Assembly (NCBI GenBank): GCA_007844125.1
Contig: CM017561.1
Location: 33,132,700-33,196,699, forward strand
Length of the DNA: 64,000 bases
Source of the DNA: Sinonovacula constricta
Lineage: Eukaryota > Mollusca > Bivalvia > Cardiida > Solecurtidae
Direction: 5' to 3'
Below the pieces are notes generated by a model that had not been told where the DNA came from, searched no databases, and saw only the letters and a list, made by a program, of their open reading frames with translations. Shown in pieces: positions 3,001-51,600 of the stretch. Positions within the stretch are counted from its first letter, which is position 1; the number at the start of each line of letters is the position of its first letter. The position numbers and the translations under genes are program-made.

Positions 3001-3341
3001 ACCACCATCTCACTAGAGAAGATCCCAGACTACAATGGCCTGGGTAGTACCACTGACACACCACCATCTAACTAGAGATCCCAGACTACAATGGCCTGGG
3101 TAGTACCACTGACACACCACCATCTAACTAGAGATCCCACACTACAATGGCCTGGGTAGTACCACTGACACACCATCATCTTACTAGAGATCCCACACTA
3201 CAATGGCCTGGATAGTTCCACTGACACACCACCATCTAACTGGAGATCCCACACTACAATGGCCTGGGTAGTACCACTGACACACCACCATCATACTAGA
3301 GATCCCACATTACAATTGGGTGAGTAGTACCAGTGAAACAC
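1..3341. repeat. 56-bp tandem array (about 60 copies), truncated at window edge
   Basis: Units of about 56 bp built on atcccacactacaatggcct and accactgacacaccaccatc repeat head to tail from base 1. Divergence is low (single substitutions such as ggg/gag, taact/tcact/ttact) and there are rare 3-bp insertions. It lies in the intron after c33 or runs into the next exon. No long open frame and no identifiable exon sequence. In transcript direction each unit holds several AG dinucleotides (TTGTAG, CTCTAG, GTGTCAG). Confidence 0.95.
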
Positions 3342-3547
3342 CATCATCCAACTGTACAACTTTCTCTCTTAAAAAGACTTAGCTACAATAGGTCTTAATA
3401 AGAAAATGGTGAGGGACAACAGGTTTAACACTTGACCTACAAGGTCACGATCAAATTGGTTGCTCCTTTACTATTTATTTGCACTTACAGCCCAGTCCTT
3501 TCAATATATTTATATTAAGTATATTCAGCTTGTTTATAACCACTTAC

Positions 3548-3631
3548 CTGATCATCGTCATCCTTCACCTTCCCTATCTCGTACAGTCGACAGATGTTCT
3601 CCTCTGCACCCATCTCTGTGCTATGCTGGTT
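3548..3631 (-). CDS. DCAF1: DCAF1 coding exon c33, start of acidic tail
   Basis: 84 nt, phase 0/0. Encodes [20 protein letters not shown] then KVKDDDDQ, matching [32 protein letters not shown]. Acceptor TTTTCAG, donor GTAAGT. More acidic-tail coding sequence and the stop codon should lie left of the window. Confidence 0.93.
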
Positions 3632-6600: not shown

Positions 6601-9600
6601 CAATATGACTGTAGTTGGTGGCATCAAAGGTCCTGAATGTTGAACCATATGGGTTATGGCGGTCTGACTCATGATCTAACTCCTCATCTATACGCGTTGC
6701 TGCAAATTTTATCAAATATTGTTACATTAAAATTTCATAACTTAACCCTTAACCTAACACATGTGTAAATAAATCCTACCACATGTAAAAACTACATTAT
6801 CTACAAGTAAGTTATCTACAAATAAGTTATCTACAAAAGATTTCATATTGCAAGAGGCTGCAGCAAAACGTGTAGGTAAGTTATAACAACCAGTTCAGGG
6901 CATTATGCAGAGATTGTTAGAGGTATAATAAACCTAATCAACACATACATACCATACATGACATCAGCCATAGGGCTAAAGTGAATCTGACACTGATCCA
7001 GGGCAGCAACTGTGTGTAGGAGGTGGAAGGATCGAATATCCCACTGAACACTGGTCAAGGAACAGGTCTTGACAGAAATATATTAAAAAAATCTCTTTAC
7101 TTGAAAGATTTATAAACTGGCAGAATAAAATTTTAACCCTGCAGTCTAAAGAGTTCAATATAAATAACATTAAAATATTCACAAACTGTCATGGTGATTT
7201 TCAGTAATAAACATGCCACTTTGGAATGCTGTATAAAATTGATGAATTTGGAAAGGATCCCTTATTTTTCATCAAACAGCCAAACAGCTGTTATGACATC
7301 ATTGTAGAGATATGTTAACCATATAATGTTTATATATAAGGGCACCTTCAACTGGTCAACAATTCTCTATAAATTTCATGATATTTTTTTTTATAATTAG
7401 ACACACATAACTTTGAGTGATTATTGCTACAATTTTCATCAAAACATCCCTGATAATCCTTTTTGCCCTATTTAGTTTTTTCAAAATAGCATGCTTGTGA
7501 CATCATGCTCTTTGTTTTTTAGCTGATAACTTCAGAAATTTCATAAATGTTTCTGGTCATATTCCTACAGTAATGAAAAAAGAAATTAATAAGTGTCTGC
7601 AGAAAATGACAACAAATAGAAGTGACAATACATTTATCATGAAAACATGTTCAAGTTTATTGCTGCAGTATACAGACCCATTTTAACTGTTATCATACTA
7701 AATTTATAATTATATATAGTAGATTTTTAGGTTAATTTTATATCAACAAACATCATTTTACAAAAGACTTTGCAGCAAACTGTGCAGAGCTGGAACTGGT
7801 TGTTGTAGATCTACACTGTTTGACAGAGCAAGTCTGAACAGTTGGTCCTTAGCGAGCCAAGACTGAAAATTTCAATGAGGCGCATAGAGACATTACTTTA
7901 TGCATGGTGTAATAAGGTTATTGCTAACATCAGTAAGTAATTCCCAGCTCTCAGCAGTAAATTAAGAACTTAACCAATGGCTTACGTAGAACCAGTAACA
8001 CAACAGATCATCTAACAAATTGACAAATATCATACATTTTAACACAAAAGGATACCACTTCAGAGTTGATGATGATTTCAAGACCTTTTGGATGGAAGAC
8101 TCCGCTCACATATTGGTTGAACTTGTCAAACTTGTGTATGGCCTTCCCCGTGCGAGTGTCCCAGAGTATTCCATCATGAAGCACAAGGTCATCGGTGGGG
8201 TTGAACACAGCTCGGTTAGCCTTGTAGTTATTGGCTTTGTCTGCATCATACAGGGTAAGTAGCTTCTCCCCAGTCACAATGTCATAGATCTAAGGAGTAA
8301 AATATACAGCTGGTGAATTTATCCATAACATACATCGGTCAATATAAAACACAGTCCATCTACCTACAACATTCCTCAGTTTACAGTTTGTGATGATGAT
8401 TTCTTAACAGAGATGTAATGTTTAAAGTCCTTTTTATATACATTTTGGCATTCATTAACTTTGTCTAGACAGCTGTTATAAGATCAAATCTTAGACATAA
8501 ACACAAGTGTGCCAAAACATTCAGCTCTAGACAGCTTCTGGTGAGATTCTCCATGCAGGTGGGACAGGAAGTCTCAACAATATGTATAGTTTAAATAAAT
8601 GTCAAACAAGAATCATCAGTACCTCATCATCTTTGCAAAGGTGATTAAATCACAGCTAGAGCTCAGATCATCAATAACCAGTGTGACAAACACACAAAGA
8701 ACATCCCCAGGCATAACCACCACAAGGTCTCTTACATTCTTGGCTGACATAGGTCTCTATTTCCTAGCAGTGCGAGACCAAGAACAAAATCTCGAGACCA
8801 AGCAAAGAGGTGCTAGACAGAGGTGTTTATTTGCCAGTGACTCAAACCCTAGCTCATCTAGAAGGTCTCTGTGTCAATTGTATTACTGAGATTATGAAAT
8901 CCAAGTCAGAACTGTTTCAAGAGACATATCATAATAATGGTGCCTGGTGCAGGACTACATACATTGGCTACCTCGTCCTTTGTGCCAACCAGCCTGTCCT
9001 GGACATGTCTGCTGAACTCAAGGTGGTAGTCACCAAAGTGAAACCTGCAGTGAAAGAAATCAGGATCAGATAGGACCAGGGAACAAATGGATCAAACGTC
9101 AGGAATTACAAGTTTAACATAGAACACCAGAATTGAGGACAAATGCACATTAGAGTAACTCTATAAAACAGCAAGACAGTTTGTTGCAATAGTTGACCAT
9201 TAAGTTCCCATGACAAGATACTTATAATAAAACAGATGTGCAAAGAAATATATTAGCAGAAAAAAGTATCTACTAGTTGTGGCTTACATAATTACTACTT
9301 TATACATTATACTTTATACATTATGAAAAATTAAGTATGCCTATGCATACATTTAGACAGTCACCGCTTTCAAGTTTCTGGTGTATTGTCTAGTGTCTCA
9401 GTCACAGCAATTATGTTACTCATGCATAGCCTTATGTCTCAGCCAGTCCCCCAACTCAAGTTACTCACATATTATCAAGTGCCTCAGTCCCCTAATTCAA
9501 GTTACTTACATATTGTCAAGTGCCTCAGTCTCCCAATTCAAGTTACTTCTGCATTGTCTAGTGTCTCAGTCCCCCAATTCAAGTTACTTACATAATGTCA

Positions 9601-12600
9601 AGTGCCTCAGTCCCCTAATTCAAGTTACTCACATATTGTCAAGTGCCTCAGTCCCCTAATTCAAGTTACTTACATATTGTCAAGTGCCTCAGTCCCCTAA
9701 TTCAAGTTACTTACATATTGTCAAGTGCCTCAGTCCCCAAATTCAAGTTACTTACATATTATCAAGTGCCTCAGTCCCCTAATTCAAGTTACTTACATAT
9801 TGTCAAGTGCCTCAGTCTTCCAATTCAAGTAACTTCTGCATTGTATAGTGTCTCAGTCAGTCCCCCAAATCAAGTTACTTACATATTGTCAAGTGCCCCA
9901 ATCTCCCAATTCAAGTAACTTCTGCATTGTCAAGTGTCTCAGTCAGTCCCCCAATTCAAGGTACTTCTGCAATGTCAAGTGTCTCAGTCAGTCTCCCAAT
10001 TCAAGTTACTTACATAATGTCCAGTGTCTCAGTCAGTCTCCCAATTAAAGTTACTTACATAATGTCCAGTGTCTCAATCAGTCTCCCAATTCAAGTTACT
10101 TACATAATGTCCAGTGTCTCAGTCAGTCTCCCAATACAAGTTACTTACATAATGTCCAGTGTCTCAGTCAGTCCCCCAATTCAAGTTACTTACATAATGT
10201 CCAGTGTCTCAGTCAGTCTCCCAATTCAAGTTACTTACATAATGTCCAGTGTCTCAGTCAGTCTCCCAATTCAAGTTACTTATGCATTGTCCAGTGTCTC
10301 AGTCAGTCCCCCAATTCAAGTTACTTACATAATGTCCAGTGTCTCAATCAGTCCCCCAATTCAAGTTACTTACATAATGTCCAGTGTCTCAGTCAGTCTC
10401 CCAATTCAAGTTACTTATGCATTGTCCAGTGTATCAGTCAGTCCCCCAATTCAAGTTACTTACATAATGTCCATTGTCTTAATCAGTCCCCCAATTCAAG
10501 TTACTTACATAATGTCCAGTGTTTCAATCAGTCTCCCAATTCAAGTTACTTACATAATGTCCAGTGTCTCAGTCAGTCCCCCAATTCAAGTTACTTACAT
10601 AATGTCCAGTGTCTCAGTCAGTCCCCCAATTCAAGTTACTTACATAATGTCCAGTGTCTCAGTCAGTCTCCCAATTCAAGTTACTTACATAATGTCAAGT
10701 GTCTCAGTCAGTCTCCCAATTCAAGTTACTTACATAATGTCCAGTGTCTCAGTCAGTCCCCCAATTCAAGTTACTTACATAATGTCCAGTGTCTCAGTCA
10801 GTCCCCCAATTCAAGTCCCCCAATTCAAGTTACTTACATAATGTCCAGTGTCTCAGTCAGTCCCCCATCTCAAGTTACTTACATAATGTTCAGTGTCTCA
10901 GTCAGTCTCCCAATTCAAGTTACTTACATAATGTCCAGTGTCTCAGTCAGTCCCCCAATTCAAGTTACTTACATAATGTCCAGTGTCTCAGTCAGTCCCC
11001 CAATTCAAGTTACTTACATAATGTCCAGTGTCTCAGTCAGTCTCCCAATTCAAGTTACTTACATAATGTCCAGTGTCTCAGTCAGTCCCCCATCTCAAGT
11101 TACTTACATTGTTCAGTGTCTCAGTCAGTCTCCCAATTCAAGTGACTTACATAATGTCCAGTGTCTCAATCAGTCTCCCAATTCAAGTTACTTACATAAT
11201 GTCCAGTGTCTCAGTCAGTCCCCCAATTCAAGTTACTTACATAATGTCCAGTGTCTCAATCAGTCCCCCAATTCAAGTTACTTACATAATGTTCAGTGTC
11301 TCAGTCAGTCCCCCAATTCAAGTTACTTACATAATGTCCAGTGTCTCAATCAGTCCCCCAATTCAAGTTACTTACATAATGTTCAGTGTCTCAGTCAGTC
11401 TCCCAATTCAAGTGACTTACATAATGTCCAGTGTCTCAGTCAGTCCCCCAATTCAAGTTACTTACATAATGTCCAGTGTTTCAATCAGTCTCCCAATTCA
11501 AGTGACTTACATAATGTCCAGTGTCTCAGTCAGTCCCCCAATTCAAGTTACTTACATAATGTCCAGTGTCTCAGTCAGTCTCCCAATTCAAGTTACTTAC
11601 ATAATGTCCAGTGTCCCAGTCAGTCCCCCAATTCAAGTTACTTACATAATGTCCAGTGTCTCAGTCAGTCTCCCAATTCAAGTTACTTACATAATGTCCA
11701 GTGTCTCAGTCAGTCCCCCAATTTAAGTTACTTACATAATGTCCAGTGTCTCAGTCAGTCTCCCAATTCAAGTTACTTACATAATGTCCAGTGTCTCAGT
11801 CAGTCTCCCAATTCAAGTTACTTACATAATGTCCAGTGTCTCAGTCAGTCTCCCAATTCAAGTGACTTACATAATGTCCAGTGTCTCAGTCAGTCCCCCA
11901 ATTCAAGTTACTTACATAATGTCCAGTGTCTCAGTCAGTCTCCCAATTCAAGTTACTTACATAATGTCCAGTGTCTCAATCAGTCTCCCAATTCAAGTGA
12001 CTTACATAATGTCCAGTGTCTCAATCAGTCTCCCAATTCAAGTTACTTACATAATGTCCAGTGTCTCAATCAGTCTCCCAATTCAAGTTACTTACGTAAT
12101 GTCCAGTGTCTCAGTCAGTCCCCCAATTCAAGTGACTTACATAATGTCAAGTGCTTCAGTCCCCACAATTCAAGTTATTTATGCATTGTCAAGGGTCTCA
12201 GTCAGTCCCCCAAATCAAGTTACTTACATAATGTCAAGTGCTTTAGTCCCCCAATTCAAGTTACTTATGCATTGTCCAGTGTCTCTGTCCTAGAAATCAA
12301 GTTGCTTATGCATTGTCCGCCAAAACAAGTTACTTATGCATTGTCCAGTGTCTCTGTCCTAGAAATCAAGTTACTTATGCATTGTCTGCCAAAACAAGTT
12401 ACTTATGCATTGTCCGCCAAAACAAGTTACTTATGCATTGTCCGCCAAAACAAGTTACTTATGCATTGTCCGCCAAAACAAGTTACTTATGCATTGTCCA
12501 GTGTCTCTGTCCTAGAAATCAAGTTGCTTATGCATTGTCCGCCAAAACAAGTTACTTATGCATTGTCCAGTGTCTTAGTCACCCAAATCAAGTTTCTTAT

Positions 12601-15600
12601 GCATTGTCCAGTGTCTCAGTCACCCAAAACAAGTTGCTTACGCATTGTCTAGTGTCTGTCACATAAAAATCAAGTTACTTACGCATTGTCTAGTGTCTGT
12701 CACATAAAAATCAAGTTACTTACGCATTGTCTAGTGTCTCAGTCACCCAAAACAAGTTACTTACGAATTGTCTAGTGTCTCAGTCACCTAAATCAAGTTA
12801 CTTATGCATTGTCCAGTGTCTCAGTCACCTAAATCAAGTTACTTATGCATTGTCCAGTGTCTCAGTCACCTAAATCAAGTTACTTATGCATTGTCCAGTG
12901 TCTCAGTGACCCAAAACAAGTTGCTTACACATTGTCTAGTGTCTGTCACATAAAAATCAAGTTACTTACGCATTGTCTAGCGCTCAGTCACCTTAATCAT
13001 GATACTTAGGCATTGTCTAGTGTCTCAGTCACCTAAATCAAATTACTTATGTATTGTCTAGTGTCTCAGTCACCTAAATCAAGTGACTTAAGCATTGTCT
13101 AGTGTCTCAGTCACCTAAATCAAGTTACTTACGCATTGTCTAGTGTCTCTGACCCCCAGGACCAGAGAGCTGAACTGTTCATGATGCCATATGATGATGA
13201 TGTGAGCACCAGCTTCCCATTCTACATATGTGAAAACACAAGTGGTACCGTTTAAAAAATAAATTTTTATTTGGTATTTGTGGACAATAAGCTTTCACAA
13301 TCACAATCATTCATAATAATGTGGTAACTTGTTAAGTATCATTTGATGCAGCATAGTATTTTTACACAGAAGAGAAATATACTTCATTAAATACAACTTC
13401 ATAACTTCATAAAATATAACTAATATAAAAGATAAACACAGGCCCATGATGTTTAATGTGCTGTTGCAATGCTATTAAAAATCATAATCTTATTTGTAGC
13501 AATGTATTGGTACTGGCTGCCATATTTCCTTCCACCACCCCACCAACCCCCTCATTAAACAGATAACAAAAGAAGAGCACTTAAGATCTGATCTTAACCT
13601 GATAAACATGAATTCATCAGCCTAGGCAAATAGCGTAGGCGTGGACCAGATGGCTTCCACTAGGATCTATCTTATAAGCTGCAGTTTATATGCCTTCATA
13701 CCTTTTAGTGTATTTGTTAGAAAGACTAAGAATTTGTAATGGTTACTAAGACATGCAGTAGGTTATTTACAAATGTAGCAGCGAATTTACACATTAGCAG
13801 GTTACTAACTAGCAGGTTACTTACACATGTATCTGGTTACTAACACATGAATCATGTTACTAAAACGTTGTGGGTTACTAACACATGCAGCAGGTTATTC
13901 ACACATGACACAGGTTACTAACACATGTAGCAGGTAACTTACACTTGAAGTAGGTTACTTACACATGAAGTAGGTTACTTACACATGTAGCAGGTTACTT
14001 ACACATGTAGCAGGTTACTTACACTTGTAGCAGGTTACTTACACATGTAGCAGGTTACTTACACTTGTAGCAGGTTACTTACACTTGTAGCAGGTTACTT
14101 ACACATGTAGCAGGTTACTTACACTTGTAGCAGGTTACTTACACTTGTAGCAGGTTACTTACACTTGTAGCAGGTTACTTACACATGTAGCAGGTTACTT
14201 ACACTTGTAGCAGGTTACTTACACTTGTAGCAGGTTACTTACACATGTAGCAGGTTACTTACACTTGTAGCAGGTTACTTACACTTGTAGCAGGTTACTT
14301 ACACTTGTAGCAGGTTACTTACACTTGTAGCAGGTTACTTACACTTGTAGCAGGTTACTTACACATGTAGCAGGTTACTTACACTTGTAGCAGGTTACAT
14401 ACACCTGTAGCAGGTTACTTACACTTGTAGCAGGTTACTTACACTTGTAGCAGGTTACTTACACTTGTAGCAGGTTACTTACACTTGTAGCAGGTTACTT
14501 ACACTTGTAGCAGGTTACTTACACTTGTAGCAGGTTACTTACACTTGTAGCAGGTTACTTACACATATAGCAGTCCTAGATGGTTATTTAAATTTTGCCC
14601 CCTATAATGTTACAAAATTTATATGACAGTCAAGTTGATCAAATATTTACTCACCAATGAATGTTCACAGTGGGTCACTGGTGATGAATGGCAGTGGAAA
14701 GAGCCAGTTTCCTGCAAATAAATGGTAAAAATGTAGGTTTGTTCAATTTAAAATTTGAAAAAGGTATGTAAATGAAATAGATAATCTGGTAATTAGTATG
14801 AAAGAAAAGAGAAATAATTATTAACAATAAAAGTTCCAAGAAAAGCTCTTGTAAAAGACTTTGGGTTCATTTCATCATAAATGTTAAGATCGATTGAAAA
14901 AACATTCTTAAATTTTGGTCTTACAATCACTCCTAAGTGAATTTCTAAAAACTGTCATAAGTGTGATTGGTGGCAAATTGATCTTATGAGCTACTCTTCA
15001 AAAGTAAGTGTAAAAATAGCGTAACTATGCGTAAACTTTTGGTGCGTCCTTCAAGGTCCATGCTAGCAGACGTAAATTGACTATCGATAATAGAACATAA
15101 AAAACATCTTATTTAAAGTTGTTGATTGAATGCTAAAAGTAACGCCGCCATTTTCTTTATTCTTGCAATTTCACTCTTAAGAGTGCCCAAAAGTAATCTT
15201 AAGATTTACAAGTGAGTTTGCTCTGAAAGAGATTTCCAAAATATTAATGGAATGCTCTTAAGAAGGAAAACCATTCTTAAGAGATAATAAAATGGTCTTT
15301 AGATTTATGATGAAACACAACCTTCATTATTATTACTAATAAGACTCTTAAGACACAATAAATTAGATATCTCATTTGATCAGCTTTTTTGTGTCCATAA
15401 ACAATACTGTTACTTCAGCAACTTTAACTTTTGTGACACAAAGCAAAAAAATCTTTTTTATATTTTTTTTTATTATTCCAATAGACTAATACGTTAAACT
15501 TACCTCTGCACTGTTGGTGTTAATGAGTTTGAGGTTCCCTGCATATGTTCCTAACATGAGATATGGCTGTGTTGTCTGAAACATAACATGAGATATGGTT

Positions 15601-18600
15601 GTGTTGTCTGAAACATAACATGAGATATGGCTGTGTTGTCTGAAACATAACATGAGATATGGCTGTGTTGTCTGAAACATAATATGAGATATGGCTGTGT
15701 TGTCTGAAACATAACATGAGATATGGCTGTGTTGTCTGAAACATAACATGAGATATGGCTGCGTTGTCTGAAACATAACATGAGGTATGGCTGTGTTGTC
15801 TGAAACATAACATGAGATATGGCTGTGTTGTCTGAAACATGTGATAATGGCTGTGTTGTCTGAAACATAACATGAGATATGGCTGTGTTGTCTGAAACAT
15901 AACATGAGATATGGATGTGTTGTCTGAAACATAATATGAGATATGGCTGTGTTGTCTGAAACATAACATGAGATATGGCTGTGTTGTCTGAAACATACCA
16001 TGAGATATGGCTGTGTTGTCTGAAACATAACATGAGATATGGCTGTGTTGTCTGAAACATAACATGAGATATGGCTGTGCTGTCTGAAACATAACATGAG
16101 ATATGGCTGTGTTGTCTGAAACATGTGATAATGGCTGTGTTGTCTGAAACATAACATGAGATATGGCTGTGTTGTCTGAAACATAACATGAGATATGGCT
16201 GTGTTGTCTGAAACATAACATGAGATATGGCTGTGTTGTCTGAAACATGTGATAATGGCTGTGTTGTCTGAAACATACCATGAGATATGGCTGTGTTGTC
16301 TGAAACATAACATGAGATATGGCTGTGTTGTCTTAAACATAACATGAGATATGGCTGTGTTGTCTGAAACATAACATAAGATATGGCTGTGTTGTCTGAA
16401 ACATAACATGAGATATGGCTATGTTGTCTGTAACATAACATGAGATATGTTTGTGTTGTCTGAAACATAACATGAGATATGGCTGTGTTGTCTGAAACAT
16501 AACATGAGATATGGCTGTGTTGTCTGAAACGTAACATGAGATATGGCTGTGTTGTCTGAAACGTAACATGAGATATGGCTGTGTTGTCTGAAACATAACA
16601 TGAGATATGGCTGTGTTGTCTGAAACGTAACATGAGATATGGCTGTGTTGTCTGAAACTTAACATGAGATATGGCTGTGTTGTCTGAAACGTAACATGAG
16701 ATATGGCTGTGCTGTCTGAAACATAACATGAGATATGGCTGTGTTGTCTGAAACATAACATGAGATATGGCTGTGTTGTCTGAAACATAACATGAGATAT
16801 GGCTGTGTTGTCTGAAACATAACATGAGATATGGCTGTGTTGTCTGAAACGTAACATGAGATATGGCTGTGCTGTCTGAAACATAACATGAGATATGGCT
16901 GTGTTGTCTGAAACATAACATGAGATATGGCTGTGTTGTCTGAAATATAACATGAGATATGGCTGTGTTGTCTGAAACATAACATGAGATATGGCTGTGT
17001 TGTCTGAAACATAACATGAGATATGGCTGTGTTGTCTGAAACATGTGATAATGGCTGTGTTGTCTGAAACATAACATGAGATATGGCTGTGTTGTCTTAA
17101 ACATAACATGAGATATGGCTGTGTTGTCTGAAACATAACATGAGATATGGTTGTGTTGTCTGAAACATAACATGAGATATGGTTGTGTTGTCTGAAACAT
17201 AACATGAGATATGGTTGTGTTGTCTGAAACATAACGTGAGATATGGTTGTGTTGTCTGAAACATAACATGAGATATGGCTGTGTTGTCTGAAACATAACA
17301 TGAGATATGGCTGTGTTGTCTGAAACATAACATGAGATATGGCTGTGTTGTCTGAAACATAACATGAGATATGGCTGTGTTGTCTGAAACATAACATGAG
17401 ATATGGTTGTGTTGTCTGAAACATAACATGAGGTATGGCTGTGTTGTCTGCAACATAACATGAGATATGGTTGTGTTGTCTGTAACATCACATGAGATAT
17501 GGTTGTGTTGTCTGAAACATAACATGAGATATGGTTGTGTTGTCTGAAACATAACATGAGATATGGCTGTGTTGTCTGAAACATAACAGGAGATATGGCT
17601 GTGCTGTCTGAAACATAACATGAGGTATGGCTGTGTTGTCTGAAACATAACATGTGATAATGGCTGTGTTGTCTTAAACATAACATGAGATATGGCTGTG
17701 TTGTCTGAAACATAACATGAGATATGGCTGTGTTGTCTGAAACATAACATGAGATATGGCTGTGTTGTCTGAAACATAACATGAGATATGGCTGTGTTGT
17801 CTGAAACATAACATGAGATATGGCTGTGTTGTCTGAAACATAACATGAGATATGGCTGTGCTGTCTGAAACATAACATGAGATATGGCTGTGTTGTCTGA
17901 AACATGTGATAATGGCTGTGTTGTCTGAAACATAACATGAGATATGGCTGTGTTTTTTGAAAGATTAATGGTAATTAAAACGTTCGAGTAAAACTGCTTG
18001 AGAATTCATATAGATTTCCCTCTTATATCTCCATAATTTATGATTATTCAGTGCTAGATGGTATGGTGCAGGCTCATTTATACTTGCATTCAAAAATTTA
18101 ACCTGCATGTATTTGCATCAAAATTTAATTAAGTTAAACAAGGAAAAATTTTGCGATAAAAAATAAAATGACTTTCGCTAACAAACTTAAAATAAGAGGT
18201 GGTATGATCACTAGGAAGGCATGTGCAAATTTGTTAAAATATATGTAGTGGGTTTTGCAGTATCAGCTTGATAGTACTTACATGCACAATTGCAATCTGA
18301 GCATTACTGCTAAGCTGACACCACTGTTTATGCAGGAATAAAACACTCCATAATCATACAAAACACAAGCTTAAAACTACTGTGAAAACACTGGTGTCAG
18401 CCCTTTAATAAAGTATATTTCCACCTAACAAGCTATAATCTGTTTACATTAAACTTTACAATTTTTTCAGTTGTTTTCATCGAAATTGAAATCATTAGCC
18501 TTAAATCGTTATTATTTATAAAATGTTAAAAGTTTTGTTAGATATGCATATTTTTGAGACTCTTAACAATTTGGTAATAATTATACTCTTTCTGATTGTA

Positions 18601-21600
18601 TGTTGATAGTCTCTGACAATTATCAAACAGGCAAATTAAGGGTAATCCCTTAAAAAATAAAACCGAAAGCAACAGAAAAAAATTTGAGTAAGTATAGAGT
18701 AAAAACATTCCCCCCTGACCCGGCATGCAAGTTAGCAGTGTCTTTAAATAAACCCTTGAGCGTGAGAAAACAGAAATACAGTACATACCTGTAAATTCTG
18801 AAAATAGAGAAACATATGTATGTCTTCAGTATGACAGTGTGTACATTGATTCAGCAAACAAATTTGGCAAGGCAAAGGTACTTGTTCAGTTGTAGAAAAA
18901 AGGGAAATTTAAACAAGAAGATAATTATTTATTTATTTATTTGGGTTTTTATGGCACACCGACACTTAACAGGTCATACGGCGCCGAATATAAAGTTTAA
19001 TGTGAATAGAGAATAATCAGGTAAAAACCAAAATGTGTTAGCAAAATAAGAAAAAATACAAAAAACTATCAGGTTAAAATAATGTGAACTACAATTTAAA
19101 ATAGGTAAATATATTAAACAGTTTAAAAAATGTATAACTGTTGGTTAATAAACAGTTTAAAAATTTATAACTTATTAAGAATATTAATCTCGTTCAAGAA
19201 GCAAACAAGTTAAGAATCCGACGCTGTCCTTAACAGTTCGAACATGATATCAAGAAGATAATTAAGCACTTATCTTAAGTAAGCAATGTTCATAGCACAT
19301 GCCTATTTTGGGAAAAGAATAACAAGCAAGAACACTTATTGTTAAGATTAATAAGACCACAGCTACCGTCAACTGGCAAATTAGTGGCCAGTATTACCGT
19401 TGTCTTAAATCCTGTAGACAACTCTTTGGCAATGTCTACAAAGGTTCATAAAGCATGTGCATCTTGTTTACTTTTTCATAATAATAATAATAATAATAAA
19501 AAATAATAATAATAATAACTGATTGGCCTGTGGACAGTAGCTGTGGTCTAAGTTGGATAGACACCTTGTGGAGTGGCCTATGAAAAGTAGAAGCTCACTC
19601 CGCTTGCATCTATTTTTCATAGACCACTCCACTCATTGTCTTTTCTTTACATAGCCAACACATTATTAAGGTGTTAATAAATAGACAAACACATAACAAT
19701 CCTAGGTTTTTCTTGTGACTTACAATGCATAGCCATAACAACAACTTAAAATAATTAACAGCTTTATCTTCATGATAACCAATGTTGAACAAGTGGCTTA
19801 GCACAGTATATTATCTGGAGATTTTTTCTACAACAACAATACCTAAACATTGCTATAATGAGCATACTTGTATTGCTTTAACATATTTACAAAACATAAA
19901 ATATGTATCCAATGATCTGAAACTGTACCAACTATTATTGAGTTATGTGTTAAACTTGTTTTTAGAAATATATATCACACCAACACAATTATAGTCATTA
20001 CTGAGTCATTATTATTCCCTACAGGGAACTGTCGGATCAGGCTCTACACTATCTGCTGCATAGTCTTTATATGTCTTGTTACCTATCCATGAAGTTATAA
20101 ATAAAGATCAAAGACTTCAGTATAAGCAATACAGCAGGCTGCAGAGTATCTGGTCCGGCACTTACAGCAAATGTACAGCAGGAGTAGCCGTCATCTTCGG
20201 ACTCCTTGTAAGTCCTGATTGGTTTGAAACGACTGTAGATCATCTTTCTATCCATCTTACAGCCATCCATCCCGCCATACTTAGGGAAAATCTGCAAATA
20301 CAGACATATTTAACATCTTAACCTGGTATATAAAAGCATTAGTCTCTTTACAAATGTCATATTGTTAAGATAATAGTTAATGTTTTTATCTATGATTATT
20401 TGTATATATGTTTTTCTTATTAACATGCATAAAACTTGTCGATCTCTATTTGGTGCATGACTTTATAAATATGTTTAATGTAACAAAAAAATCAAACAGT
20501 TAAAAGAGGTTCTTTAATTCAAAAAGAAAAAATAAATGTGACAAGCAGAATTAAAACCCTATATTAGTGTACCTAATTATGCTTACACTTTTATGGCACT
20601 TAATGGAATATTGCTATAACAATATTTTTATTCGTGATTTTCTTTTAATTCTTGAAAATAAAATGTGTATTTAATGATGTCCAAAATGAGATAATCATTA
20701 CAAAAAGAATCAAAACTTACACTTTTGCTTAAATGCACATGCTTATAACAAACAATCAGGTCGCTTTTAACTAATCTTTTAAAAAACTTGCTTATGCTCT
20801 TCCTGTTGAAATAAGTAGTTGCATGCATTTCACTGCTTGTTATTTTGGCCAGTTTATCATATAAACATATTGTCTGATGTCCACAGAGAAGATGAGATTT
20901 ATCAAACAAGGCAGCCTCTATAAATGCAATTGTTAGTATTTTATACTTGAACCTTAATACATATTGTAATAACAAATGTCTATGCCTCCATTTTAACAAT
21001 AAATAACATTGAAATCATAACTTTTCCTACACAGTGTTCATCAATTAAGTCATCCAACTTTTTAGAGTATCAACATTGCAAATAACTGATGCATTTTTTT
21101 GTTCACCATTTGCAATTAATTTCGCACAATGCCTTATGCATACCAAACACCACAGTAAGAGTAAATGGCTAAATTTTAACCAAAATATTTTACCATTTTT
21201 TCCATTGTTCTAACAGTAAAGTTGCAAGGGGCTGAGGTTTTCTTTCTAGGTTCTGGGCAGCGATGAGGTCTGAAATTTTATACAGATGATGAAAATTTTT
21301 GGTTAAAATCAATTTAGTTGGGTGTAGCCCCATGCTTTTTTATGTTTATTTATTGGGTTTATTCTTCCACCAACAGTATTTAAGTTATCTGGAGACGGTG
21401 TTCACCTGAAGCAGATATAGTGCTGCCTTCACTGTGTCCAGCATGCCATGAACACCTGGCATGATACCACACCCAGTCACATTATCTTGAAACCGGGAAA
21501 ACCATTTGTGAAATGACCCTTATATTTGCTTGAGCATTAGCAAGGAGAGCTATACCACTACCATTTTTGACGACTTTGGTATGTTGTGGCCCGGGACTGA

Positions 21601-39600: not shown

Positions 39601-42600
39601 ACTGTACAGCTACATAGCACATTGTACAGTGCTACATACCACATTGTACAGCTTCATTCCACATTGTACAGTGCTACATACCACATTATACAGCTACATA
39701 CCACACTGTACAGCTACATACCACACTGTACAGTGCTACATACCACATTGTACAGCTTCATACCACATTGTACAGAGCTACATACCACATTGTACAGTGC
39801 TACATACCACATTGTACAGAGCTACATACCACACTGTACAGCTACATACCACATTGTACAGCTACATACCACATTGTACAGTGCTACATACCACATTGTA
39901 CAGAGCTACATACCACACTGTACAGTGCTACATACCACATTATACAGCTTCATACCACACTGTACAGAGCTAAATACCACACTGTACAGCTACATACCAC
40001 ATTGTACAGCTACATACCACATTGTACAGTGCTACATACCACATTGTACAGAGCTACATACCACATTGTACAGTGCTACATACCACATTGTACAGCTTCA
40101 TACCACACTGTACAGTGCTACATACCACATTATACAGCTAAATACCACATTGTACAGTGCTACATACCAAACTGTACAGAGCTACATACCATACTGTACA
40201 GAGCTACATACCATACTGTACAGAGCTAACTTCCACACTATACAGAGCTACATTCCACACTGTACAGAGCTACATACCACATTGTACAGTGCTACATACC
40301 ACACTGTACAGCTACATACCACATTGTACAGAGCTACATACCACACTGTACAGAGCTACATTCCACACTGTACAGAGCTACATTCCACACTGTACAGAGC
40401 TACATACCACACTGTACAGAGCTTCATACCACACTGTACAGAGCTACATACCACACTGTACAGAGCTACATACCACACTGTACAGAGCTACATACCACAC
40501 TGTACAGACCTACATACCACACAGTAGAGCGCTAAATACCACACTGTACAGTCTACATACCACACTGTACAGAGCTACATACCACACTGTACAGAGCTAC
40601 ATACCACATTGTACAGAGCTACATACCACATTGTAGACAGCTGCTTACCAAACTGAACAGCTACATACCACACTGTACAGCTACATACCACATTGTACAG
40701 CACTACATACCAAATTGTACAGAGCTACATTCCACACTGTACAGAGCTACATACCATACTGTACAGAGCTACATAACACATTGTACAGAGCTACATACCA
40801 CACTGTACAGAGCTACATACCACATTGTACAGAGCTACATACCACACTGTACAGCTACATACCACATTGTACAGAGCTACATACCACACTGTACAGCTAC
40901 ATACCACATTGTACAGAGCTACATACCACACTGTACAGCTACATACCACATTGTACAGAGCTACATACCACATTGTACAGAGCTACATACCACACTGTAC
41001 AGACCTACATACCACACAGTAGAGCTACATACCACACTGTACAGAGCTACATATAACATTGTACAGAGCTACATACCACACTGTACAGAGCTACATACCA
41101 CATTGTACAGAGCTACATACCACACTGTACAGAGCTACATACCAAACTGTACAGAATACATACCACATTGTACAGAGCTACATATCACACTGTACAGAGC
41201 TACATACCACACAGTAGAGCTACATACCACACTGAACAGACTACATACCACACTGTACAGAGCTACATACCTCATTGTAGACAGCTGCTTACCACACTGT
41301 ACAGAGCTACATACCACACTGTACAGACCTACATACCACATTGTACAGAGCTACATACCACATTGTACAGAGCTACATACCACACTGTACAGAGCTACAT
41401 ACCACAGTATACAGAGCTACATACCACATTATACAGGGCTACATACCACATTGTACAGAGCTACATACCACACTGTACAGAGCTACATACCACATTATAC
41501 AGAGCTACATACCACACTATACAGAGCTACATACCACATTGTAAAGAGCTACATACTTAAATGTACCACACTGTACAGAGCTACATACCTAAATGTACCA
41601 CACTGTACAGAGCTACATACTTAAATGTACCACACTGTACAGAGCTACATACCACATTGTAAAGCCGTCTGAGACCATCCTGAGTGTCAAATCTGTTAAG
41701 GATGACATAGAATGGGAAGGCCTGTGTGAAGAACATGGCAGCATGGTATCGGCTGGAATCATGGGAGCACTCCAACAACCACAGGATGTAGCTGCAACAT
41801 GACATTGGATGGCTGAACTAATATGAGCATTCAAATGATAATTTCCAGATAGATCTGTTAGTTCAAAAAGAAACATCAACATTTTATTGTCCTTTATCAA
41901 TTTCAATTTTTACACCTAAACATTATGCTCCTTTTTCGTAACCTTTTAATCTATGCATAGGCTATCAAAAACAACAGGTTTTTTTTTTCTCACTTAAGAA
42001 AAATAACTACAACAATTTTCCAACAAAGGTTCAAATTGACTAAAACATTATTCCATATGGCAACTAATTGCTACACAATTCTAAGTATGTCCTTATCTCC
42101 AGTGAACATACGAACAAATGTTATCACCCCCATCCAATGTAAAGTAAGCACTGACCTAACGAGGGTAGTTAGGATGTGATCAGAGAGCAGGCACACCCTT
42201 TCCATGGCATCCTCAAAGTAGGACAGGTAGTAGAGACACAGAGATACACCTGTAGCTGCGATAGAGGGACGGTACACATCCAGCAGCTTCTGTACACCAG
42301 ATCTCTGCAGGAACTCAATGGCAAACTTCTTATGGCACAGCAACACGGCCAGGTACTGCAGGAGTGGGGTAAATATTAAACTAGCATGGCACCCACTGAT
42401 TGTGAGGATGCAATAGACCATAAATGAAATTTAGTACAGCAGAACAATTGTCCCAACCAAATCCATTTCGCTATAAAAAGACTTACTTATAATAAAACTT
42501 TGAACTGCATTAAAAGTGGTATTAAAACCCAAAGCCAAAAAAGGCATGAAATGATTAATGGTACCTGTGAAAATTGATCATTAAAAGTTACTATAGACTT

Positions 42601-45600
42601 GCTATTGATGCATGTATCTGATATCTTTAGGGGAATTGTCTGATGCCACCCTTAAGAAGCTTCAATGCATTTTACACATGACAAGGTACCACACATCATT
42701 GCTTATAATGTGCAATGATATATATCAGTACTGGTACACAGGGTACTGGGAAAAATCCTTTGATCTGTATGCAATGGGAAATAATTTCAGCAAAAAACAA
42801 CAAACAAAAAAAACAACCCCATAAACTACTAACTGCTCACTCAGATCTTCCTCTCTCTACCCAGTAATTCTTCAATTTCCCATCTACTCCTTCATTCGGT
42901 TATACTCTCATCCACTTTTTCAGTCCTTGTGTTCCCATCCACTCCTTCTCATCTATGCTCCATTTATGCTCTCATCTACATTTCAACCATTTGTGTGCCC
43001 ACCCACTCCTTCATGGGCCCATCTACTCCTTCATGTTCCTACCCATTCCTTTATGTTCCCACCCACTCCTTCCTGTTCCTACCAACTCCTTTGTGTTCCC
43101 ATCCACTCCTTTATGTTCCTACCCACTCCTTCATGTTCCTACCCATTCCTTTATGTTCCCACCCACTCCTTCATGTTCCTACCCATTTCTTTATGTTCCC
43201 ATTTACTCCATATTCCCATCCACTCCTTTATGTGCCCATCTACTCCGTCATGTTCCTACCCATTCCTTTATGTTCCCACCCACTACTTCCTGTTCCTACC
43301 CATTCCTTTATGTTCCCACCCACTACTTCATGTTCCCACCCACTCCTTCATGTTCCCACCCACTCCTTCATGTTCCTACCCATTCCTTTATGTTCCCACC
43401 CACTCCTTCATGTTCCTACCCATTCCTTTATGTTCCCACCCACTCCTTCATGTTCCTACCCATTCCTTTATGTTCCCACCCACTCCTTCATGTTCCTACC
43501 CATTCCTTTACGTTCCCATCCACTCTGTAATGTTCCTACCCATTCCTTTATGTTCCCATTCACTCCATATTCACATCCATTCTGTCATGTTCCTACCCAT
43601 TCCTTTATGTTCCCATTCACTCCATATTCCCAACCACTCCGTCATATTCCCAACCACTCCGTCATGTTCCTACCCACTCCTTTATGTTCCAATCCACTCC
43701 TTCATGTTCCCATCTACTCCTTTATGTTCCCATTCATTCCTTATTCTCTCTTTGTCTCTATTAAAACAAATATAACACAAACTTCTAAGCCTCCCAGCCC
43801 GCATGTCGAGTCTCGTTTAATGCCAAGAACTTTATATGAAAAGGTCTTTAATCTGACCTTCGTTGCCCCGATGGTTCTATCCAAACATTTGTCTGCAGTC
43901 TTGCATAAAATTATCTGACCGTCACTATAATGATCATAACTAGCCCTGCGATGTATTTTTAAATAAAAAAAACTTAAAACAGAAATTTTAGGTTAAATAA
44001 AATTTTATATGCACACAAAGCTTACCTTAAGAGCTTCAAAGGCTAGCCTGACATCTCTGTTGTATTTGAGGTTAATGTAGTAAAACACCAGGTCCATGGC
44101 TCGATGTTCAAAAGCTGCACTGATCAGCTGAAATGTGGGTTGGAAGTTAAAAGGTGACAATACTCACTACATCAATCTAGTTACTAAACAACTTTTTCAA
44201 AATAATGTGCTCTTAAGTTAAGGTATATTCTTAACTTAAATTGCCAACTTTGTCACAAAAATGTCTAAGTTGAGATTAAAAGCACTACTGGTGGAAAGAA
44301 GACAATCTGAATGATTAACCATATGTATACCTTAAACCTATCTTTCATTGCAAGTGTGACAGAGAAGATGATGTGTCAGTTTGAAATAGTGAACTTTTAA
44401 TACTCGCAATTCTACATTCTTTCTCAATCCATTCTTAATTTTTAGTCATCATTTAAAATCTACATGCAAAGGTGTAAGGATAAAATGCATGAGAGTCAGT
44501 ATAAACAAGATGCTGTGTTCAGAAAATAATATGCCCCAGGTAGCATAATTGGCCATGATAAACCAAGAAATAAGGTAGCAAGAGTTATGTAACTTGTCAG
44601 GGTCATGACCTGTGCACTGTTAAATAAGTGAAACTTTCATGCCACTGCTCTTTGTAGAAACTGAGAAATATCCAACTAGCTGAAAAAGGTTAACCAGACA
44701 GACGGACAGTTGTAATGAAGGACCATTCAATTACTTGATGCCGAGGCATAAAGTTGTTGATTCTAATCATATAGCTTTCAACATTAAGCTGGCTGACTTG
44801 GAGCTAAGCTATGTCCTACCAGGAAATTACCAGGCTCAGAGTTAATGATAGTGTAAATGCACAACAACTAACACTAGGGCTGAGTATAGGCAACAACAGT
44901 GTCATGATGACCCTCGATTGCTCACCTGAGATCCATGGCTTTCAGCATGCTTTAAAATGTTATCACCAGATTAAATGTACCTAACTGTGCCTTTGGCATC
45001 TACTGATCGGAAGTTTATTTAGCAATGTCCATGCAGACTAAGGTTCTAATAAATACTTGCCCATGGATGTGAGGTACTGTAGTACCAGCCTCTGCCAATA
45101 TATATGAGCACTGGTACTCTGCCCTACTGCACAATACACTCAACCTACCTCCTGATACTCACCCATGGGTGTGAGGTACTGTAGTATTAGCCTCTACTGA
45201 CAAGTGTATAGATACAAGCCTTGGTACTCAGTCTTACTGCACAATACATTCAGTCTACCTCCTGATACTTGCCATGGGTATGAGGTACTGTAGTAGGTAC
45301 TGTAGTATCAGCCTCTGCCGTTATGTGTATAGATACGAGCCTTGGTACTCTGCCCTACTGCACAATACACTCAACCTACCTCCTGATACTCGCCCATGGG
45401 TGTGAGGTACTGAAGTATCTGCCTCTGCCAATATGTGCATAGATATGAGCCTTGGTACTCTGCCCAACTGCACAATACACACAACCTACCTCCTGATACT
45501 CGCCCATGGGTGTGAGGTACTGTAGTATCAGCCTCTGCCAATATGTGTATAGATATGAGCCTTGGTACTCTGCCCAACTGCACAATACACACAACCTACC

Positions 45601-48600
45601 TCCTGATACTCGCCCATGGGTGTGAGGTACTGTAGTATCAGCCTCTGCCAATATGTGTATAGATATGACCCTTGGTACTCTGCCCTACTGCACAATACAC
45701 ACAACCTACCTCCTGATACTCGCCCATGGATGTGAGGTACTGTAGTACCAGCCTCTGCCAATATATATGAGCACTGGTACTCTGCCCTACTGCACAATAC
45801 ACACAACCTACCTCCTGATACTCGCCCATGGGTGTGAGGTACTGTAGTATCAGCCTCTGCCAATATGTGTATAGATATGACCCTTGGTACACTGCCCAAC
45901 TGCACAATACACACAACCTACCTCCTGATACTCGCCCATGGGTGTGAGGTACTGTAGTATCAGCCTCTGCCAATATGTGTATAGATATGACCCTTGGTAC
46001 TCTGCCCAACTGCACAATACACACAACCTACCTCCTGATACTCGCCCATGGGTGTGAGGTACTGTAGTATCAGCCTCTGCCAATATGTGTATAGATATGA
46101 GCCTTGGTACTCTGCCCAACTGCACAATACACTCAGTCTACCTCCTGATACTTGCCATGGGTATGAGGTACTGTAGTAGGTACTGTAGTATCAGCCTCTC
46201 CTGATATGTGTATAGATATGAGCCTTGGTACTCTGCCCAACTGCACAATACACTCAACCTACCTCCTGATACTCGCCTATGGGTGTGAGGTACTGAAGTA
46301 TCTGCCTCTTCTGATATGTGTATAGATATGACCCATGGTACACTGCCCTACTGCACAATACACTCAACCTACCTCCTGATACTCGCCCATGGGTGTGAGG
46401 TACTGAAGTATCTGCCTCTCCTGATATGTGTATAGATATGACCTTTGGTACACTGCCCTACTGCAAAATACACTCAACCTCAATCCAGTGTTGGCTACCA
46501 TTCTGACTTGTCAACTTTTATTTCTTTTATTTATTTGAGTATCTATTCGTAATTTTAAAGCTTGACTTTTTAAACTTTTATTTGTGTAGGCTGCAAAGAT
46601 GTGCTCTGTGAACTTATAATTATTTCAACAAGAAATACCCGAAGGATTACTGTGAAATTTGTCATGAGTGTCTATGAATGTGTCATGATTGGATATATAT
46701 ACTTTTTGTGTGGAATAAGCTTGCAGTTTTTGAGAAATTTGGAATATATGAACATAACTGATATTTCAATTGAAATTTCAAAAATGTGTATCTTGCCTAA
46801 GGAGGATTTAGCTGATCAGTGTTTACCAGGGATTATCCAATATAATAGGTGTAGCCTACACAATATAAGGCAATTATCACCAGCAAAACTTGATCCATGT
46901 GTACTAGAAACATTGAAACAGCTAGACATACTACAGCAATATAGGGGTACTAGAGGGGGTCGTGTCATTGAAAGACGAATATGGGACACAAATGGTGGAG
47001 TTCACCTTCATAATATTCGAACCTTACCTCAGAATATATCAACGAGAATAACAAATATTGAACATAGACAAAATCCTCCAAAAAACAGTGTTAATCCTGA
47101 CAACTTGAGAAAGATCTCATTTGAACCACTGTCTGTTTGTAAAGGGCAAACTAAGATTAAAATCTGTTGTCACAATTCAAGATCAGTGAAAAACAAGACT
47201 TTGGCCTTTTCTGATTACATCATATCCAACGATTTTGACATTATCGCTGTGACAGAAACGTGGCTTGGTGGTCTGGGTGACGAAGCGTGTATCGCCAAAT
47301 TAGTGCCTAATGGATACAAAATTGCCCATGTTCCTCGCCAAGGTCGTGGTGGTGGAGTAGCGGTTATTTACAAGGCACCCCTAAAACTCACTATGCTTGC
47401 ATCTAGTCGCAATACTAATGTTACGTCTTTTGAATATATGGACTGCATCATCAGTGTAAAAAACATTTCTCTACGATTGGCTGTGGTATATAGACCGCCT
47501 CCAAACAAACAAAATGGCCTTAAGACTGGTACATTTCTTGATGACGAATGGCCGACATTTCTTGCAAACTTTACGACTGCTGAGAACGATATTATTGTGG
47601 TGGGAGACGTTAATTTTCACTTAGACAATATGTCAAACCCTAACACGGCAAAATTCAAAAGTGTTTTGGAGGCGTGTGGCATGCGACAACACGTCACTGA
47701 ACCAACTCATGTAGCAGGCCACATACTAGATGTGCTTATTACCAGAGATACAGACACAACGGTATCAAATGTAGAAATATCTGACCCTGGACTCCCAGTC
47801 AATAACGGTAATACGTCTCGCGATCACTTCGCTGTTGTATTTAATGCTAGTGTGTCAAAACCACCACCAGTACGAAAAACTGTGACTTACAGAAAATTAA
47901 AATCGATAGATGTTAATGAGTTTAAAACAGATATTTTGACATCAGATATTTTAAATAGTGTAAAAGAAAGCTCAAATGTTGATGAACTAGTTGATGCCTA
48001 CAACAATGGTCTTTCTTTTCTCCTTGACAAACACGCACCTCTCAAGTCCAAGAGCATTGTACTAAGACCAATGAATCCGTGGTATTCCCAAGAACTTCAT
48101 GATGCTAAACATTTAAGACGCCAGTTAGATCGAAAGTGGCGATTGACTGGATTGACAATTGATCACGCAATTTACAGAAACCAATGCGCTGTTACTAATA
48201 AGCTTCTTAATATGTCCAAAGTTAAATACTACACTGAGAAGGTACAGCTATGTGGTCGTGACATGAAAGACCTTATCAAAGTGACCCGGCATTTGATGGG
48301 AGAAACCACAGAAGTTGTGCTGCCATCTGGTAAACCTGCAAACGTTCTTGCACAAGACTTTAGTGACTTCTTTGTCGATAAGGTTGAAGGCATACGAAGT
48401 GATATAGCCAGGACCATGTCTCACCAACAAACAGACAGTGTTGTCCCTGAAGCACCTTTCAATGGGGAGCATTTTTCAAACTTTTCACTAGCCTCCGATA
48501 TGGAAATTTCAAAAATTATTCCCAATTCTCCCAACAAATCCTGTGAACTTGACCCCATTCCAACATGGCTGCTGAAAGATTGTTTAAATGAACTATTACC

Positions 48601-51600
48601 ATTGATCACCAAAATCATTAACACTTCACTTGAGAAGGCCTATGTACCACCAGCTTTTAAAAGTTCTAGAGTAAGGCCTTTAATCAAAAAGACGGGGTTA
48701 GATCAAGAGGTTATGAAAAACTACCGGCCTGTATCTAATTTACCGTTTGTCTCAAAGATTCTCGAGAAAGCTGTCGATTCCCAACTTGAAAGACACCTAT
48801 CTGCACATAAACTTCACGAAGAGCGTCAGTCTGCTTATAAGCAGTTTCATTCAACAGAATCTGCTTTATTATTTGTAAAAAATGACATTCTCCGTTCTCT
48901 TGATATGAATGAAGCTACTGTGCTAGTCATGTTGGACTTATCCGCTGCTTTTGATACGATCGACCATAGTACCCTCCTTTGCCGACTTGAGCAACACTTC
49001 GGCATAGTAGGCAAACCTTTACAATGGATGAAATCGTATCTATGTGAGCGCTATCAAACTGTCTGCGTTAATGGAGAACTGTCAAAACCTGTACGTATGA
49101 CATTTTCTGTGCCACAAGGGTCTGTTCTTGGCCCGAAAAAATACATCATGTACACTAAACCTGTGGGCGCGATCTGTCGGAAGCATAATCTTCAACATCA
49201 TTTCTACGCTGACGACTCGCAATTGTACATGGCGTTTAAACCAAAAGAAACCATTTCACGCAATGAGACCTTGCGAAGGATTGAAGCATGCCTGAATGAC
49301 ATCATACTTTGGATGAATAATAACTTTCTCAAACTAAATGCGGACAAAACAGAGGTGATTGTCTTTGTACCAAAACGAAGTAACGTTGAAGATCTTACTG
49401 TAAGGGTAGGCGATTCTGTAATAAAACCATCAACAACAGTTAGAAACCTTGGTGCCATACTGGACTCTCATTTAGACATGGAACAACATGTGAACTCAGT
49501 TTCTCGTTCATGCTTCATGCAAATTCGACAAATAGGTCAAATTCGTAAATACCTGACCGTAGATTCAACCAGAACCCTGATAAACTCGTTAGTGACATCA
49601 AGACTAGATTACTGTAATTCGCTGCTATATGGATCTCCTAAGTACGTTCTCAACAAGCTCCAAAATGTTCAAAATACGGCTGCTCGCGTGGTAACCAGGA
49701 CACCACATAACTGCCACATAACCCCTGTATTAAAGGAACTACATTGGCTTCCTGTACACATCAGAGTCGAGTACAAACTCCTCACATATGTGTTTAAGGC
49801 GCTGCACGGACAGACACCTACCTACATACAAAACATGCTAGACATTTATATCCCATCCAGACAACTTAGGTCCCAGAATGATTGTTTAACGCTGGTTGTA
49901 CCGCGTAGTAGGACTGTGACTTACGGTGATCGCGCGTTTATGACGGCAGCCCCTAAACTCTGGAATGCCCTACCTAAATCACTTAAAAGCTGTGAAACTC
50001 TAACAGTGTTTAAGAGAGCACTTAAAACTCACTTATTTAAGAGGTTTTATCTGGACTGATTATTTTTGAACCAGAGTCGCTTTCTAACAAATTCTTAAGT
50101 CTTACCTGTATTTTATTTATCTTTTTTATTTTTATGTATGACTTGAGCAATACCTATGTTTTAATCTTTTTTTTAAATATTGTATTATCTATGTGGTTAC
50201 ACTGTACAGTACTTTTGAACGTGTTAATTGTACATGAAAAAAGTGCTTAAGAAGTTTGGTATATAATAATAATAATAACCTACCTCCTGATACTCGCCCA
50301 TGGGTGTGAGGTACTGAAGTATCTGCCTCTCCTGATATGTGTATAGATATGACCCTTGGTAGACTGCCCTACTGCACAACACACTCAACCTACCTCCTGA
50401 TACTCCCCCATGGGTGTGAGGTACTGAAGTATCTGCCTCTCCTGATATGTGTATAGATATGACCCTTGGTACACTGCCCTACTGCACAACACACACAACC
50501 TACCTCCTGATACTCGCCCATGGGTGTGAGGTACTGAAGTATCAGCCTCTGCTTCATCCCAATGCTGAGAGGGTTTAGGCTGAACGAGCCAATCACGTAT
50601 GGCTCAATGTCTGCCCAGCTACTGTTGCTGACATCACTCACTGGAACAAATAAAGAGTCTTTGTATCTTTCTCGTTAAATATTTAAATGAACATGATCAG
50701 CAACAACGAAATAAGTTCCCATGTAGGGAAAGTGATACTCCTGAAAATTACACACACAAAAAACAAGTTTAGAAACATGAATTTTCATTTTGATCAATCC
50801 TGAGCATGGAATCAACATAATTAGATTATAACATGTAACATTTTCAAATCTCACCTTATGTGCTCTTTTCAGTCTTTAGTTGCAAACTATGCATTCAATG
50901 AAGAAGGTGGTAACAGATAATATTAAAAAGAGGGCCATCATGGCCCTATATCACTCAGCTGAGTAACCATAGACATTAAGATAATATTAGCAGTATTTAA
51001 ACAGACCAGAATAATTGTAATTAATTTAACAAATACCAGGGCTTTTGCTATTTCATTATTCACAATTTTCCTGTATTACCATACATGTATATGTAAAAAA
51101 AAAAATGCATGCCGCTCTGACGCCCAGTTTTTTGAGGTTTTTTTGTACAAAATCTTGATACAGGTTCACCCAAGAAACATGTATACACAATAACAAAGCT
51201 CTAGCTCTAGTAGTTTCTGACAAGACAAGTTTCAATGTTTTTCAATATAACAGTAAGTAGAAACTGGCCATGGTCCTGGCAGCCATGTTTTTTTTAAGGA
51301 TCACAATGTTTATTAATAATCTTTAAACAGGGCTACCCAAAGGGCCAAAGAACATCTACATCAAATATCAAGGCTATAGCTATCCCCACACCCCAGGCAG
51401 CATGTTTTTTGCTGGAACAACATTCTTTGAACAATCATGATTCAGGGTTACCAAAAGAACATGTATACAAAAATAACACTGCTAAAGCTCTAGTAGTTTC
51501 TGACAAAAAGATTGTCAAAATTTTCCTAAAGAGCCATATATGGAAAATGGCCACAACCCTGGTGGCCAATGTTTTTTGAAGGACCAAAATGGTCACAATA

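Follow-up and report, generated by a model that had tools for sequence, protein, structure and literature searches.

Minisatellites built from exon–intron borders at five junctions of a bivalve DCAF1 gene

The window analysed here is a stretch of 64,000 nucleotides from the bivalve Sinonovacula constricta (assembly GCA_007844125.1, contig CM017561.1, positions 33,132,700 to 33,196,699), and all coordinates below count from its first base. Its minus strand carries a DCAF1 gene, five exon–intron junctions of which are occupied by tandem arrays made from the junction itself. The gene was modelled by spliced alignment of DCAF1 to this strand, followed by correction by hand: five of the 38 pieces of the automatic model were merged into exon c6, a spurious piece (22852-22929) was removed, and the edges of c7, c21, c22, c1 and c33 were shifted after reading of the sequence. 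The resulting model has 33 coding exons with 4,668 coding bases; all donors are GT, all acceptors AG, and the phases are consistent. The C-terminus of the protein falls outside the window, past its start.

Many of the protein matches carry the name DCAF1. Among the matches listed (best 120 of 586), the highest score belongs to Dreissena polymorpha DPMN_016951, with other molluscs next. Over aligned positions, the protein encoded in the window is 69.8% identical to that of Dreissena and 49.5-60.8% identical to 17 others; no protein in the list is similar enough to come from this animal itself. At all five junctions bearing arrays the reading register is kept relative to most of these 18 homologues, indicating that coding is continuous. 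The exceptions are Tegillarca, without residues at c7 and c16, Pinctada, without residues at c16, Patella, without one residue at c25, and Dreissena itself, with three extra residues at c25. Several relatives also show one- to three-residue gaps within a few positions of c27.

Arrays were located with Tandem Repeats Finder (TRF), which returned 43 rows in the window, and their edges were set by wrap-around alignment of each unit. An original prediction, made from the letters alone, had placed five arrays with periods between 22 and 110 bp at the donors of c27, c10 and c7 and the acceptors of c25 and c16. All five are real and were found at these junctions with about these periods, c27 also in a 41-bp form; that list omitted the splitting of two arrays by transposons and four other large arrays (Table 1). 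The predicted composition of the units, exon edge plus splice site plus a piece of intron, was borne out by alignment to the exon ends in 5/5 cases: each array starts 12-55 bp within its exon, passes the splice site and extends into the intron. In the main TRF rows of the five arrays, 79-96% of positions match between copies. The c27 array is further ordered into sub-families, with the 41-base form on the exon side, mostly 45-base copies further in, and a return to 41-base forms at the opposite end.

Table 1. Features of the DCAF1 locus in the window. Site positions are those corresponding to the genuine splice site in each copy.
Feature	Position	Strand	Description	Basis
DCAF1 coding region	3548..63370	-	c1 (63261-63370) to c33 (3548-3631)	spliced alignment, homologue search, alignment to 18 homologues
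c27 donor array	9435..13149	-	41-bp unit beside exon, 45-bp deeper; GT at 63/84 site positions	TRF + wrap-around alignment
Exon c27	13133..13221	-	last 17 bp = first array copy	
c25 acceptor array	15552..17965	-	32-bp unit; AG at 75/76 site positions	TRF + wrap-around alignment
Exon c25	15504..15575	-	first 24 bp inside last array copy	
c16 acceptor array	26946..27295	-	unit ~67 bp; AG at 3/5 site positions	TRF + wrap-around alignment
Exon c16	26929..27000	-	55/72 bp inside array	
c10 donor array, exon-side part	39588..41664	-	22-bp unit; GT at 87/97 site positions	wrap-around alignment
c10 donor array, distal part	31512..35164	-	22-bp unit; GT at 147/171 site positions, one formed at element border	wrap-around alignment
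Exon c10	41653..41791	-	last 12 bp = first array copy	
c7 donor array, exon-side part	50277..50553	-	110-bp unit; 3/3 sites read GAG, then GTAGGT	wrap-around alignment
c7 donor array, distal part	45053..46480	-	110-bp unit; GT at 12/12 site positions	wrap-around alignment
Exon c7	50504..50640	-	last 50 bp = first array copy	
DNA-transposon-like insert in c10 array	35164..39574	.	inverted-repeat ends, TA flanks	exact ends read by eye
Non-LTR (long terminal repeat) retrotransposon in c7 array	46481..50276	+	stop-to-stop frame 46574-50059	RVT_1 + endonuclease domains
Intronic 20-bp array, donor-like	13741..14573	-	82 bp downstream of c26 donor	GT in 39/41 copies, 32/41 GTAAGT
Large array without visible exon overlap	42994..43732			
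Large array without visible exon overlap	54383..54670			
56-bp array in intron after c33	3..3353		reaches window edge	

The exon parts of the units agree closely with nearby copies. Compared without gaps, 17/17 and 16/17 positions match at c27, 47/50 and 48/50 at c7, and 23/24 and 24/24 at c25. At c10 the sequence directly adjoining the exon matches at 10/12 positions, and a segment that begins ~90 bp further on matches at 12/12. Only 31/55 and 34/55 positions match at c16, where copies differ by insertions and deletions; in a gapped alignment, its five copies match the unit consensus at 84-96%. These exon pieces encode residues that are largely conserved across relatives, most clearly at c7 (a 15-residue stretch), c10 and c16 (a 16-residue stretch) and less so at c25 and c27. 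The exon border is therefore the source of the unit, and on the same ground we ruled out an intronic array that encroached on the exon. Each of the five junction units matches its own exon only; scores against the other exons with 60-bp flanks stay within those of shuffles.

As had been predicted, the gene thus holds several hundred copies of its own splice sites. The five arrays contain 448 splice-site positions, of which 390 are canonical GT or AG (234/268 over both c10 parts and 15/15 over both c7 parts; Table 1 for the others), and five of the 390 are the genuine sites. Site strength was estimated with a simple weight matrix not trained on this species. On this scale the genuine site and the median canonical copy score 3.0 vs 3.0 at c10, 5.4 vs 5.4 at c7, 2.5 vs 2.5 at c25 and 2.9 vs 2.9 at c16. 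At c27 the values are 0.2 vs 3.8, and only one of the gene's 33 donors is weaker than the genuine c27 donor. Typical copies thus equal or outscore the genuine site, and strength alone would not pick the right one. At c16, upstream extensions by one to nine units were tried, only the first four within the array; an AG lies at most 6 bases away in 7/9, and all seven of these extensions contain a stop. At c25, where nine copies were tried, the third and the sixth leave the frame open and the seven others do not.

Two of the arrays are interrupted by mobile elements. The c10 array is a single array of ~5.7 kb, split by an insert with terminal inverted repeats (29-nt arms, 90% complementary with TA included), TA on either side and GAAACGG-rich stretches in its interior. 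This element resembles the Tc1/mariner type. Once array and element are subtracted, intron 10 consists of 73 bases on the acceptor side (31439-31511) plus one unit. The retrotransposon in the c7 array has an uninterrupted frame of 1161 residues with reverse transcriptase and endonuclease domains, is flanked on both sides by AACCT, a probable 5-bp target duplication (by eye), and is apparently young. Because both elements lie inside arrays and bear target-site marks, the tandem copies predate the insertions; growth on either side of the elements may have continued afterwards.

The original prediction had also held that overlap with junctions is unlikely by chance. In our test, one unit per array was placed randomly in the gene after arrays and elements had been collapsed (36.7 kb, 65 junctions); the count of TRF loci excluded an ATA microsatellite and any row that overlaps a larger array or lies within either element. 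Among arrays with at least 5 copies, 5/9 straddle a junction where 0.68 are expected (P = 1.6e-4), or 5/8 without the array at the window edge (P = 5.4e-5). When all TRF loci with a period of at least 14 are taken, the count is 5/17 against 1.17 expected (P = 3.8e-3). If a unit must extend 5, 8 or 12 bases to either side of the junction, P falls further, the strictest figures flattering the case as c10 has exactly 12. Large and small loci differ in their presence at junctions (5/9 vs 0/8, P = 0.02), and the five arrays at junctions exceed the 12 remaining loci in length (Mann-Whitney P = 0.005). Within this gene there is thus an excess of arrays at junctions, although the test is post hoc and concerns one gene.

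We also asked whether the remaining arrays derive from junctions. Units of seven of the 12 non-junction loci were compared with every exon plus its 60-bp flanks, and no match exceeded the shuffles; the donor-like 20-bp unit reaches a best score of 22, with shuffles at a mean of 18.8 and a maximum of 23. For these seven, we therefore rejected the idea of displaced junction arrays. A search for repeated 8-mers in the protein models of relatives, as possible traces of similar arrays, gave 3/120 listed proteins, all from fish, and this candidate was likewise dropped. A PDB search with the frame at 52489-53451 gave no match.

Apart from the arrays, the gene contains a second version of coding exon 4 (57480-57596, minus strand, coordinates counted by hand). 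It is 117 bp long, resembles c4 (56966-57082), has identical phases and encodes 39 residues between the splice sites ttgtttgcag and gtacac. The Dreissena protein model has a 39-residue insert after residue 87, at the identical place, which is apparently homologous to this second exon. Judged from these similarities, the two versions may represent conserved mutually exclusive exons.

Based on these observations, we propose, with a probability of roughly 0.8, that a boundary minisatellite arose at each of five exon–intron borders of DCAF1, and that these arrays are of the type known in amphioxus as mirages. As described in two reports, mirages are duplications of intron/exon boundaries in the amphioxus genes Adh3, globin, TnC and PGBD5, with splicing reportedly undisturbed (PMC3087553, PMC3902484). 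At each DCAF1 border, a short tandem duplication of 22-110 bp would have copied the exon edge, the splice site and the first or last bases of the intron, and slippage or unequal exchange would then have extended the repeat intronward until arrays of 5 to 268 copies had formed. The copy on the exon side would be held fixed by conserved protein coding, leaving the others free, and the genuine site would probably be chosen by its position, as the copy nearest the constrained exon, rather than by its strength. Most likely, then, these are ordinary tandem duplications across borders that are tolerated since the exon-proximal site still works. A selective explanation of this type, in which arrays that keep a working site at the border are tolerated, had been offered by the original prediction and fits the data. 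Intronic arrays, however, should be equally harmless, so tolerance alone does not explain the excess at junctions over arrays inside introns.

Several observations weigh against the proposal or restrict its reach. Four of the nine large arrays overlap no visible exon or junction. Short tandem duplications, detected by autocorrelation outside the large arrays and the elements, show no excess at junctions (0/7 vs 0.81 expected), which counts against a bias at birth. At c25, exons lengthened by 3 or 6 copies would be open and in frame, and the four copies on the exon side match the consensus at 97-100%, so the edge copies are not distinct. Finally, this is one gene, picked for its pattern, and the post hoc P values overstate the case.

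With this in mind, it is quite possible, if short of probable, that chance and attention account for the distribution: in a region dense in minisatellites, arrays would strike introns, borders and intergenic DNA alike, and the gene would have been noticed for its five border cases. Arrays of at least five copies cover 19,125 of the 64,000 bases (about 30%), the window may be one of any number that were screened, and both the weaker P value once small repeats are counted and the behavior of the short duplications agree with this account. The larger arrays do not fit it well, their P value becoming smaller with longer required overlap, and independent amphioxus genes show the same arrangement (PMC3087553, PMC3902484). 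That parallel and the within-gene excess, as well as the greater length of the junction arrays, instead favor a process specific to junctions, for instance through DNA breaks or slippage coupled to transcription, to splicing or to nucleosome edges, which would make or expand the duplications. A junction-biased process was also the original suggestion, and we entertain it tentatively; like chance, it is compatible with the mirage label. The restriction of each unit to its own exon and the small duplications speak against it, and no common fold was found that could serve as a driver. Of nine units folded as single strands, only c10 was clearly better than shuffles (z -2.1, 8/200 as good); c16 was slightly better (z -0.9), and c27, c25 and c7 were worse than the shuffle mean. 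A general bias toward junctions is plausible, resting here on one gene, which is insufficient to establish such a process.

A distinctly unlikely alternative is that the decoy sites do harm, so that the ones closest to the exon are silenced by selection, or that the arrays regulate splicing. Copies 2, 3 and 4 of the c27 array (13009-13132, minus strand) have each lost the G at donor position +1, to T, A and C. Calculated post hoc, P is ~5e-4 for three losses at +1 and 3.4e-3 for losses at +1 or +2, while three states at +1 within a 14-copy block have a P of 0.0055. These losses hint at silencing of near decoys. In addition, the five site positions that follow the genuine c10 donor score lower than it, and read-through into the intron reaches a stop after 111 nt at c7, 69 nt at c10 and 1 nt at c27. 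On the other hand, the +1 G of c27 sits in a CpG, whose decay would yield G-to-A changes, copies 5 and 6 retain GT, and copies 2 and 3 of c7 equal the genuine site in strength, with no loss pattern at +1 like that of c27. Nor is the splice core clearly the best-conserved part of the units. In six array segments (c27, both c10 parts, distal c7, c25 and the intronic 20-bp array) it is at least slightly above the mean conservation of the rest, but 6 to 71 other six-column windows are equal or better, and with so many windows as conserved we make no claim that selection keeps the core. Similarly, we consider it unlikely that junctions are preferred sites of minisatellite birth or growth from amphioxus to bivalves by way of splice-site use, with hundreds of full-strength decoys ignored by position and only the nearest silenced by selection. 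An assembly artefact is very improbable. A single assembly is the basis of this work, but the copies differ from one another, c27 shows ordered sub-families, and transposons with target-site marks lie inside two arrays, which makes assembly stutter unlikely.

Provided that the assembly is correct, this gene offers a natural test of how one of >200 near-identical donors or of 75 acceptors is chosen by the spliceosome, something that is otherwise studied with constructs. A comparable human case is reportedly described under a title in Nucleic Acids Res 1995, 23:1854, namely a minisatellite that gives multiple splice donors in an interferon-induced transcript; the gene is said to be 6-16/IFI6. 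Both are tandem repeats with donor sites, but several copies act as donors in IFI6, going by that title, whereas those of DCAF1 are potential donors. Introns arising from tandem arrays are, again by title, reportedly the subject of Zhuo 2007. In human genes from segmental duplications, internal tandem repeats at exon–intron boundaries are described as producing novel introns or changed exons (PMC2812944). Like the DCAF1 arrays, they lie at boundaries and are able to alter splicing there; unlike these cases, the modelled exon–intron structure of DCAF1 fits the proteins of its relatives. In the Rogers model of intron gain, tandem duplication likewise supplies the splice sites, but an AGGT in an exon has to be duplicated to give a new intron (PMC4974935, PMC2891723). 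The DCAF1 units include intron sequence, and no added intron is needed.

The closest relatives of the DCAF1 arrays are the mirages. Among the literature matches listed, judged by their titles and the opening lines of abstracts, no boundary minisatellite of a mollusc was found, the term mirages having been looked for only alongside amphioxus. In amphioxus BflGb6, two haplotypes carry 6 and 3 copies of mirage units of 150-160 bp, the copies being 81-100% alike; the same report cites units of 10-72 bp for Adh3 and states that reverse transcription PCR suggests regular splicing (PMC3087553), and a second report adds PGBD5 and TnC (PMC3902484). Compared with these cases, DCAF1 has the same unit of exon edge, splice site and intron piece, on donor and acceptor sides alike, its copies bear splice signals, and unit length varies by locus. 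The unit spans the boundary in 5/5 arrays and the protein is uninterrupted. The behavior of edge copies is mixed: the 41-bp form on the exon side of c27 resembles the reported escape of cluster edges from homogenisation (PMC3087553), and the exon-side copies of c25 show no such distinction. The differences lie in the host, a bivalve rather than a cephalochordate, in the presence of five arrays in a single gene, and in copy number, which reaches 268 in DCAF1 vs 2-7 in the amphioxus globin and PGBD5 mirages. By their sequence, the DCAF1 arrays would thus be a set of mirages, a kind already known, with far more copies than the amphioxus globin and PGBD5 cases. They would extend boundary minisatellites from amphioxus and human genes to a mollusc, which would make such arrays a general way for introns to grow and possibly to be gained.

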